Source of the DNA: Amphibalanus amphitrite
Taxonomy: Eukaryota; Arthropoda; Thecostraca; Balanomorpha; Balanidae
NCBI RefSeq assembly: GCF_019059575.1
Contig: NW_024882036.1
Span: forward strand, 186,001 to 250,000
Direction of reading: 5' to 3'
DNA: 64,000 nucleotides
Shown here: one piece after another, positions 19,606 through 46,800 of the stretch
Layout: the number at the start of each line of letters is the position of its first letter
Position numbering within the stretch: position 1 is the stretch's first letter
The notes under the pieces: generated by a model
What the model saw: only the letters and a program-made list of their open reading frames with translations
What the model was told of the DNA's origin: nothing
The model's database searches: none
Made by a program: the position numbers and the translations under genes

Positions 19606-19848
19606 CTACCGGGACACCTGTCGCTCGCGCGGCTCGGCGGCGCGCTCTGCCATTGGTCCGGAGCGCTGCTGCGCGGCGCTGTACTGGCGGATCAGGCGTG
19701 CTATCTCTGCCGCGTTCTCCGTCTGCATCCGGATGACCTTGGCCTGTTTGGGCGTGCCGACCTTGACGTCGATATAGAGGTCCCCGGCATCGGAGCGGAC
19801 CCGACGCGTGGAGAGCACCTCGCTGAACGGGTACTGGCTCTGAGTCTC
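19606..19848 (-). CDS. MYO15: MYO15-like exon 13: FERM F3 lobe and C-terminus
   Basis: 81 codons including stop, phase 0 after TTTGTCTACAG. It encodes ETQSQYPFSEVLSTRRVRSD, then GDLYIDVKVGTPKQAKVIRM, matching the F3 strand pattern of myosin XV. It ends soon after the F3 helix (EIARLIRQYSAAQQ) with a short Arg/Glu tail. Confidence 0.88.
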   Translation of the reverse strand, partial: ETQSQYPFSEVLSTRRVRSDAGDLYIDVKVGTPKQAKVIRMQTENAAEIARLIRQYSAAQQRSGPMAERAAEPRERQVSR

Positions 19849-43800: not shown

Positions 43801-46800
43801 CTGTTCCAGCCCGTAGTAGTCAAGTCAATCGTGTTCCAGCGGCAGGCCCCGTTCCCACGTCTAACAATTTGTCCCTCTTCGGAACTGAGGGACACAGAAA
43901 TGCTCAGCGACATGGAAAAGAATCTCACTCAGGACGAGATCACACTGGAGCAGTTTTACAACATGACGACAGTGGATTTACTGGAGACGAACAAATGGGA
44001 AGTCAACAATATGCGCCTTTACTACAGAGAGACCACGGAACAATTTAAATATCACACATTCCCAGGCACAAGTAAGCTGGGGCGGTGGCGCGCGCGCTAC
44101 TACTTGACACTGACCGAACTTGACGAGAAGTTGATTCCGACACTCTGTCTGACTTTCGAGCCGAGCGAATACCTGAGAAACCGGGCCAAAAGCGACGTCA
44201 ACCTGTGCTGAATCTGAAGGTCACGGAGCTCTTCAAAGGAGGAGGCATAACCTACCACCTGTTTCTGCACGAGACTGAGGACCGAATGTCGGCGATCTAG
44301 CCGCCGAAGCGCTGGGCGCGGACATTAAGCAGACCGTCTCGGTGGACCTGCCCCTGAAGAGAGACCTCACGCTGCGTCTGACTGCCCGCATGCTCAGCAT
44401 GGTGAATGTGCGGCGCCGGCCGTGTCGGGAGGACCCCGGCTACTCTGCCATCCAGTGTCTGAAGGAGTGTCTGTGGAGTCGTCTGGCGGCCAACATCTCC
44501 TGCCGGTTGCCGCACATGGTCGGCGCCGGGGTGTACCTGCCCGACATGAGCGGACCGCTCGACCACCTGCCACTCTGCGCGAGGCCCGTGCAAATGAAAT
44601 CCAGCAAGAATCGAAGAATTAACCGGCTGTGTGAGCGCATCGAGGAGACTTGCGCATATAACGATTCATACAGATGGTACAGGCCGACCAAGCTCCCAAC
44701 TCCAGAGGACGAGGTCGATCCGTTTTCATTTTTCTATAAATGGAGGTACAGTCGGAAGACACAGCCCGCTTCCATCAGACTAGAGCCCACAGAGAATACT
44801 CAGGACAAACTGGCCAACATCAACGACTGCACAATACCGAAAGACCTCGAAACGTTCGTTGATGACCGCCTGGCCACCGACACACAAGGCTGCGATTGCC
44901 CACCTGCCTGTCGGCAAACATTCTACCAGCTATCGGACTGGTCTCCTGGGGACGACAAGAGCAAGGACAGCTGCCGGCAGGTGCTGACACTGTCCGTCAG
45001 CCTGAAGGCCGATGAGGTCAGCGAAGCCATCTCCTTCACCCTGCCGACTCTGCTGGCCAACATCGGAGGCACCAACGGCATCATGACCGGATACTCGCTC
45101 TTCACCCTGACGGCGGCTGGCGAGGCGCTGGCGTGGAAGCTTGCCCGGAAATAAAACAGGAGTCGGTGGTGAAGTCAACATCACATTCGCGGACTGTTCT
45201 TATGCCGTTTCAGGTCTGTGATCATCTTTTTCTCAGGTTACCGACAATGGGTACACTAGTTATGTCGCCGGCTGCATAAAATCATCAACACAGGCTGCGA
45301 GTGCCATGACCCTGTTTCACGGCATGCTGCCAGCCGCTACTTGCGCTATTGCGCATTCGGTTTCCATGGAAACATCAACAACTTTCGTTGTGAGCGTCCG
45401 CGTTTGTTGATGCTGGAAACTGAAAGCGTAATAGCGCTAGCCACTAGTAGCATGCCTGCGAAACAGAGCCCCTGCCGTCAGCCACCAGTTCCTGTTCACG
45501 GTTCACCAGTGTAGGTAGCGCTGTGAGCACAGTTTTATGTAGGTGGCGCTGGGTGCAGGAGGCGGTGACAAGAGATAATGCCTGGTGCTCAATGTCCGCT
45601 CGAGAGTTGTCTGTTGTCTGTCCGGACCAAATAAAGAGACTAGTGCACTCTGTGTGCGCCGTGTCTGTGTCTGGAGTAGACACATAATTCAGGCGACTTT
45701 TGTCTTGTGAGTTATTATCATTATGCTTGTAGCAAAACGGCCAGAGCTCAGCGTGCGTGCATTGTCTGCCTCGGGAGCAGATCGCGGGCTCAGTGCTCAC
45801 CGCGTGTCTCATGTAGACACACGAGACACCCGTTGTGGTCGAAAAATGGATGAGACAGCGGACAACATCTACCCTATCTGTGCTGTCTGTCTCTGAACCA
45901 GACAGCGGCCCGCACCCTGTCTTTGCTGTCTGTAGATCAGACAGCGGACAACACTCACCATGTCTGTGCTGCCTGTGTTTGGTGAAGACGCGCAGAACGG
46001 CCTCCTCCGGGAAGCTGAGCAGGGCGGGGTCCTCGCTGGAGTGTTCCTCCGTGGCCCGCATCAGGTGGTGGCGGCCCTGCCGACGGCGGAGCGAGGTCAG
46101 GGCCGGGCCAGGGAGGTCAGGGGCCGGTCAGGGCAGTCAGGGGTCACTCAGAGTCGGGGATAGTCGAGGTTCCGTTGGGGGCTAGTCAGAGGTCAGTCAG
46201 GGCCAGTACGAGCCGATCAATTTTCAAACTCACAGTCGTGAGCCGAGAAGGGGCCAGTCAGGTCATGTCTTGGGAGCTAGTGGAGCCGCGTTGAGCCTAA
46301 TATAGGCGAGAAAATAGTCGGTCCGTGCCCGTTCCAGCAAAAATACTTCCAACATTGAAGGGCAATGGGACTCAGTGATGTGAATGTATGATTAATAATT
46401 ATATCGTATGAATATAGAGATCCTAAGTGCTTATGTGTTTTATGTACCGCGAGGATGAAAGGTAGTTTTCGTTCAGACGGGTTACATTACGATTTCTATG
46501 AATATGGCGATAAGCCGATACAAGCACTTCATTGTAACGAATCCATGACAGATGTAAAATGACGACAAAGCTTCGATACATAAAGTACCTATCTTGATCA
46601 CTGTCAATGAGATGTAGAATATTGAAAATAGTCGGGGTCTCATTGACAAATGGTCTCATTGACAGTGATCGAGATACTTTATGTATCGAAAGCTTTGTCT
46701 TGTACAATAAACTTGAGTTCGTCATTTTACAAGCACTTCTGTTAGGAGCTGAATGTGACCAAACAGCTCCAAACGTCAGAGGTCAAGGTCACTCTCCACA

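Follow-up and report, generated by a model that had tools for sequence, protein, structure and literature searches.

Six splice junctions of a single gene in the barnacle Amphibalanus amphitrite are each copied in tandem beside themselves, in arrays whose repeat unit contains the exon edge together with its own splice site. The gene is a myosin-XV-like gene (hereafter gene A) on the minus strand of the window, a stretch of 64,000 nucleotides of contig NW_024882036.1 (positions 186,001 to 250,000). The arrays are probably mirage-type minisatellites, that is, tandem duplications which by chance fell over an exon-intron boundary, expanded in some cases and were tolerated through splicing at the proximal site.

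Junction-spanning arrays in a myosin-XV-like gene

Gene A comprises exons X1-X13 (Table 1). Its 12 introns are all GT-AG, and the joined exons form one open frame of 1453 residues. Pfam analysis of the product returned a MyTH4 domain (E 3e-33), an SH3 domain (SH3_2 above the cut-off) and weak FERM-type matches. Among the 94 matches listed, the closest proteins were the A. amphitrite NCBI 'unconventional myosin-XV-like' isoforms X2 and X1, which from their names we read as RefSeq models, and residues 900-1453 of the joined frame were 100% identical to both. A myosin-head domain was absent from the listing for both isoforms. Isoform X2 (P0001) runs from an exon near 54.6-55.8 kb to exons X1, X2 and X4-X13, skipping exon X3, with which isoform X1 (P0002) begins. 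The exon numbers given in the first-pass annotation are correct in the isoform X2 order (13 exons, exon 2 being our X1 at 46 kb).

For each splice site, a stretch of 30 exon and 30 intron nucleotides was taken and aligned to the next 400 nucleotides on the intron side, with 200 shuffles as control. A site passed when no shuffle gave as good a score and the match crossed the junction. As listed in Table 1, 6 of 25 sites passed, namely the donors of X1 (score 29), X8 (28.5), X10 (45) and X12 (56) and the acceptors of X6 (45.5) and X7 (43). Shuffled means ranged from 9.6 to 14.4, and none of the 200 shuffles equalled any of the real scores. Hence the earlier claim of six tandemly copied junctions, with donor arrays at exons 2, 8, 10 and 12 and acceptor arrays at exons 6 and 7, was borne out. 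The remaining 19 sites of the gene failed the rule. An intronic CTCTCC repeat gave the X6 donor a score of 18, while the X1 acceptor scored 12.5 (1/200 shuffles), neither match crossing the junction. The FKBP acceptor at 18233 had no junction copies (score 11), and a motif search for the donor of the exon near 55 kb gave no match.

Table 1. Gene A and its junction-spanning arrays (window coordinates; copy numbers include the exon's own copy)
Feature	Position	Strand	Authentic junction base	Description
Myosin-XV-like gene	19606..46076	-		Exons X1-X13; SH3, MyTH4 and weak FERM-type matches
Exon X3	35866..38214	-		Start of isoform X1, skipped by isoform X2; junction copies on neither side
X1 donor array (isoform exon 2)	45841..45986	-	45958 (first intron base)	3 degenerate copies of exon end plus donor; 2 from the scan, third degenerate one placed in the alignment
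X6 acceptor array	30007..30260	-	30049 (first exon base)	3 copies of TCAG acceptor plus exon start
X7 acceptor arrays	24451..25718	-	24503 (first exon base)	12 copies in 2 blocks, 24451-24896 and 25399-25718 (7 + 5 copies)
X8 donor array	23677..23828	-	23803 (first intron base)	2 copies from the scan; a further, partial copy recognised by eye in the sequence
X10 donor array	22237..22694	-	22651 (first intron base)	8 copies, spacing 50-62 bp
X12 donor array	20155..21272	-	21216 (first intron base)	16 copies, spacing 61-77 bp

The motif CACAC/GTGAGTC is present in all 16 X12 donor copies of the window contig. Judged by eye from the copy tables, the six array units look unrelated to one another, and AGGT lies across the junction in two of them (X6 and X8). 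A copy range of 3 to ~16 had been proposed at first pass. Its ends agree with the X6 and X12 arrays, whereas the scan alone gave only two copies for X1 and X8, the third coming from alignment or inspection.

Other features were noticed around these exons. The X1-X2 intron contains a coding region for a DEG/ENaC (ASC) channel on the opposite strand (43291-45154), with its halves in different frames, as well as a 56-bp minisatellite of ~6 copies (41929-42308) away from exon edges. A reverse-transcriptase stretch with RVT_1 at its start occupies 26228-29556 in the X6-X7 intron and is apparently split by a ~1.8-kb insert; a related stretch lies at 47078-47998 in the opposite orientation. The minus strand also codes for a Fibrinogen_C domain at 48617-48964, in the interval separating X1 from the 55-kb exon. 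In addition, a block consisting of X7-type array copies and a flanking element occurs twice within 24618-26207, with ~79% match across contigs.

Array placement and the junction as a possible target

Of the 10 complex arrays in the introns of gene A, 6 extend over an exon edge, while 0.53 would be expected, and none of 20,000 random placements reached 6. The null placed arrays uniformly, allowing them to reach up to 60 nt into an exon; the ten arrays omit three simple repeats and a coding array in X3, and the second X7 block was counted with the first. The early impression that the arrays sit on exon edges beyond chance is thus confirmed for this gene. Array placement was used because a position-level control within the gene was uninformative, as 12-15% of 1242 interior points fell within arrays, which were in many cases the same ones.

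Since gene A had been selected for showing the pattern, other genes were sampled. From 100 myosin-head matches listed in the barnacle's own genome we took seven gene regions with 58 edges, which had been predicted by means of profile matches combined with a site matrix. Only two of these edges passed the rule, and both are acceptor sites in one myosin gene, on contig C93. By eye, the donor of one of these two exons is duplicated as well, but its match extends too little into the intron to pass. This gene (C93:241990-243375) has three duplicated junctions in all, two acceptors and one donor, with roughly 2-4 copies each. On contig C1, an acceptor match (score 29) was not counted, as the 31-bp array adjoins the exon with no exon bases included; this minisatellite (C1:1353641-1354153, ~14 copies) runs up to the splice acceptor.

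A second myosin-XV gene, the close paralog gene B (contigs C935 and C1959), was mapped with the predicted protein P0004. Junction copies were found at none of its 47 tested junction sides (42 plus 5 further), which represent 31 distinct places as both contigs repeat many introns, compared with nine junction arrays in gene A and the C93 gene. Outside gene A, then, at best 3 of 105 edges (58 sampled and 47 of gene B) are duplicated, all three in C93. Meanwhile, gene B and the other-gene loci contain 63 complex arrays in 185 kb, a total which counts both gene B contigs, or 6.9% of bases. At this density, an array that takes in 8-60 nt of exon is expected across ~1.8% of edges, which gives 1.8 of 104 edges against three seen (P 0.28; the P values used 104 edges, the full count being 105). 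Under the same null, gene A (6/25) gave P 4e-6 and C93 (3/6, one judged by eye) P 1e-4. The difference between gene A and the rest had P 0.0007 with two hits and P 0.0017 with three. The junction rate elsewhere is near chance in this small, myosin-only sample, and uniform random duplication does not explain the clustering in certain genes.

The leading alternative to chance duplication is a junction-targeted process, in which duplication is attracted by splice junctions themselves or by chromatin or R-loops that accompany spliced transcription, or in which selection retains arrays containing a splice site. The placement of the gene A arrays and the clustering in C93 speak for it. So does the splice dinucleotide, with no change in 12 columns of 44 aligned copies in the window contig (P 0.0017), a value obtained from alignments centred on the junction. 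However, when the units of the three large arrays were cut away from the junction, the conservation was not significant, and 26-52% of neighbouring column pairs were unchanged as well. Conservation as a functional signal was hence rejected, its P value arising only with junction-centred alignment. Together with the near-chance rate outside gene A and a GC in place of GT in the last X12 copy of the second contig described below, this leaves targeting an unlikely explanation, and the junction-targeted duplication suggested at first pass is not shown by the wider sample. It is likewise doubtful that some genes of this barnacle are hot spots whose splice junctions attract tandem duplications or preferentially retain them, and that mirages mark a junction-coupled mutational process common to distant animals.

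Splice-site choice, array turnover and intron age

At all six arrays, the annotated NCBI isoforms that include the array use the site proximal to the exon, although these models may be partly predicted and would favour open frames anyway. The proximal site is the first transcribed copy for donors and the last transcribed copy for acceptors. By a site matrix, 27 of 39 copies score above the authentic site or at most 1 bit below it, and all 15 further X12 copies equal the authentic donor; the matrix was trained on gene A and gene B sites, authentic ones included, and the third X8 copy was imprecisely placed. Site strength alone can therefore not explain the choice, and it is probably position, rather than strength, that decides which copy is spliced. 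Exon definition may be the reason why the proximal site wins.

The gene thus offers natural tests of splice-site choice, with one exon followed by 15 more donor copies identical from CACAC to GTGAGTC and another preceded by 11 further copies of its acceptor. Proximal use is annotated in both directions, which, if RNA confirms it, fits exon definition better than first-site scanning.

The near-authentic strength of most copies would also suit arrays acting as decoys that tune splicing or isoform output. Of the 38 alternative sites, however, 14 are in frame and none is both in frame and open; the third X8 copy was left out of this test, and the middle X1 site was misplaced by one base (read as TG), its correct place being out of frame too. 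As the X12 array also differs greatly between the two contigs, a functional role as decoys is improbable.

The myosin-XV-like gene is present on a second contig as well (C471), presumably the other haplotype of the window contig. A tandem scan of C471 found arrays at all six matching places. The X12 array has 12-13 copies there versus 16 in the window contig, with nine spacings of 55 bp, and its final copy carries the GC mentioned above; past the array, more decayed copies remain. Intron lengths in the window and C471 were 1368 versus 1125 bp for X12-X13, 5372 versus 4431 bp for X6-X7 and 4660 versus 5503 bp for X3-X4, and the other introns were equal save for differences of 2, 4 and 23 bp. 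The introns with the X6, X8 and X10 arrays have the same length in both contigs, and that with the X1 array differs by 4 bp. A copy-number difference was found for the X12 array only, because much of the gene is near-identical between the contigs.

Sequence similarity among the X12 copies may reflect turnover within the array. In the exon part of the C471 array, similarity among the non-exon copies is 0.967, and that between them and the exon's own copy is 0.81-0.86, which would be as in concerted evolution with the exon edge left out. The exon copy of the window contig does not stand apart in this way (0.920 vs 0.906).

Tandem arrays are difficult to assemble, and mis-assembly might have made or inflated them; a one-base difference of C471 in the C run of X7 is probably an error. 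Still, arrays stand at every matching place of C471, although the two contigs may share reads, and the copies differ mutually by substitutions and indels, so that an assembly artefact is very improbable.

The first-pass annotation had also compared the arrays to a proposed route of intron gain in which a piece of exon carrying AGGT is duplicated in tandem (the Rogers model), whose intermediates the junction copies resemble; mirages have themselves been proposed as able to feed intron gain (PMC3087553). Exact mapping placed introns of gene A and gene B at equal position and phase at X1/X2, X5/X6, X6/X7, X7/X8, X8/X9 and X11/X12, and read-through of gene B sequence into the intron located the same introns at X9/X10, X10/X11 and X12/X13; for the X10 and X12 donor introns the equivalence rests on this read-through. 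All six array-bearing introns thus occupy positions common to gene A and gene B, so that the introns are older than the arrays. Because the six introns predate the arrays, and with AGGT across only two of six junctions, the comparison fails, and intron gain is refuted for these introns unless gene B gained the same six independently.

We return to mirage-type duplication as the preferred reading. A short tandem duplication (~45-90 bp) would by chance span an exon-intron boundary, and the exon edge and splice site would thereby be copied as one unit. Some duplications may then expand into arrays via unequal exchange or slippage. The spliceosome would continue to use the copy beside the exon body, and mis-splicing would yield products that lose the frame or meet stops, which would explain why the arrays are tolerated. 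This reading is built on the observed copies, splice dinucleotides, pre-existing introns, length difference of one array and annotated proximal use, from which we infer the duplication mechanism.

Relation to known systems

In amphioxus, the name 'mirages' has been given to minisatellites with a repeat unit that extends across an exon-intron boundary (PMC3087553); they occur there in Adh3, troponin C, the globins BflGb6 and BflGb9, and PGBD5 (PMC3087553, PMC3902484); the last of these was added by PMC3902484, which also cites troponin C. According to these sources, copy number varies between haplotypes, the introns are spliced regularly by RT-PCR, and somatic instability is reported for Adh3. 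Outside amphioxus, a potato RdRp case duplicates an intron-exon structure and fission-yeast cases involve repeated 24-bp exonic segments (PMC4974935), while intron gain by tandem duplication is reviewed in PMC3443670. In titles and abstract openings from one open-licence collection, mirages were not reported for any arthropod.

Compared with tandem-duplication intron gain in potato and fission yeast, the barnacle duplications likewise include splice signals. They differ in that the arrays adjoin existing introns, none having been added where there was no intron before, and in that exonic AGGT does not supply both splice sites.

Several features are shared with amphioxus mirages. The barnacle units span the exon-intron boundary (6/25 sites), the arrays stand at both donor (four) and acceptor (two) sides, and many copies retain AG or GT. 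Copy number differs between two contigs, as it does between amphioxus haplotypes, here for X12 only and with haplotypes presumed. Regular splicing is reported from RT-PCR in amphioxus; in the barnacle, the annotated isoforms use the exon-proximal sites. Unlike the amphioxus cases, the present one concerns an arthropod, with six junctions in one gene and up to 16 copies, and suggests that minisatellite-rich genomes can produce mirages repeatedly. So, the barnacle arrays represent a known phenomenon in a new host lineage, and extend to an arthropod the mirages that the passages of the cited papers name for amphioxus alone.
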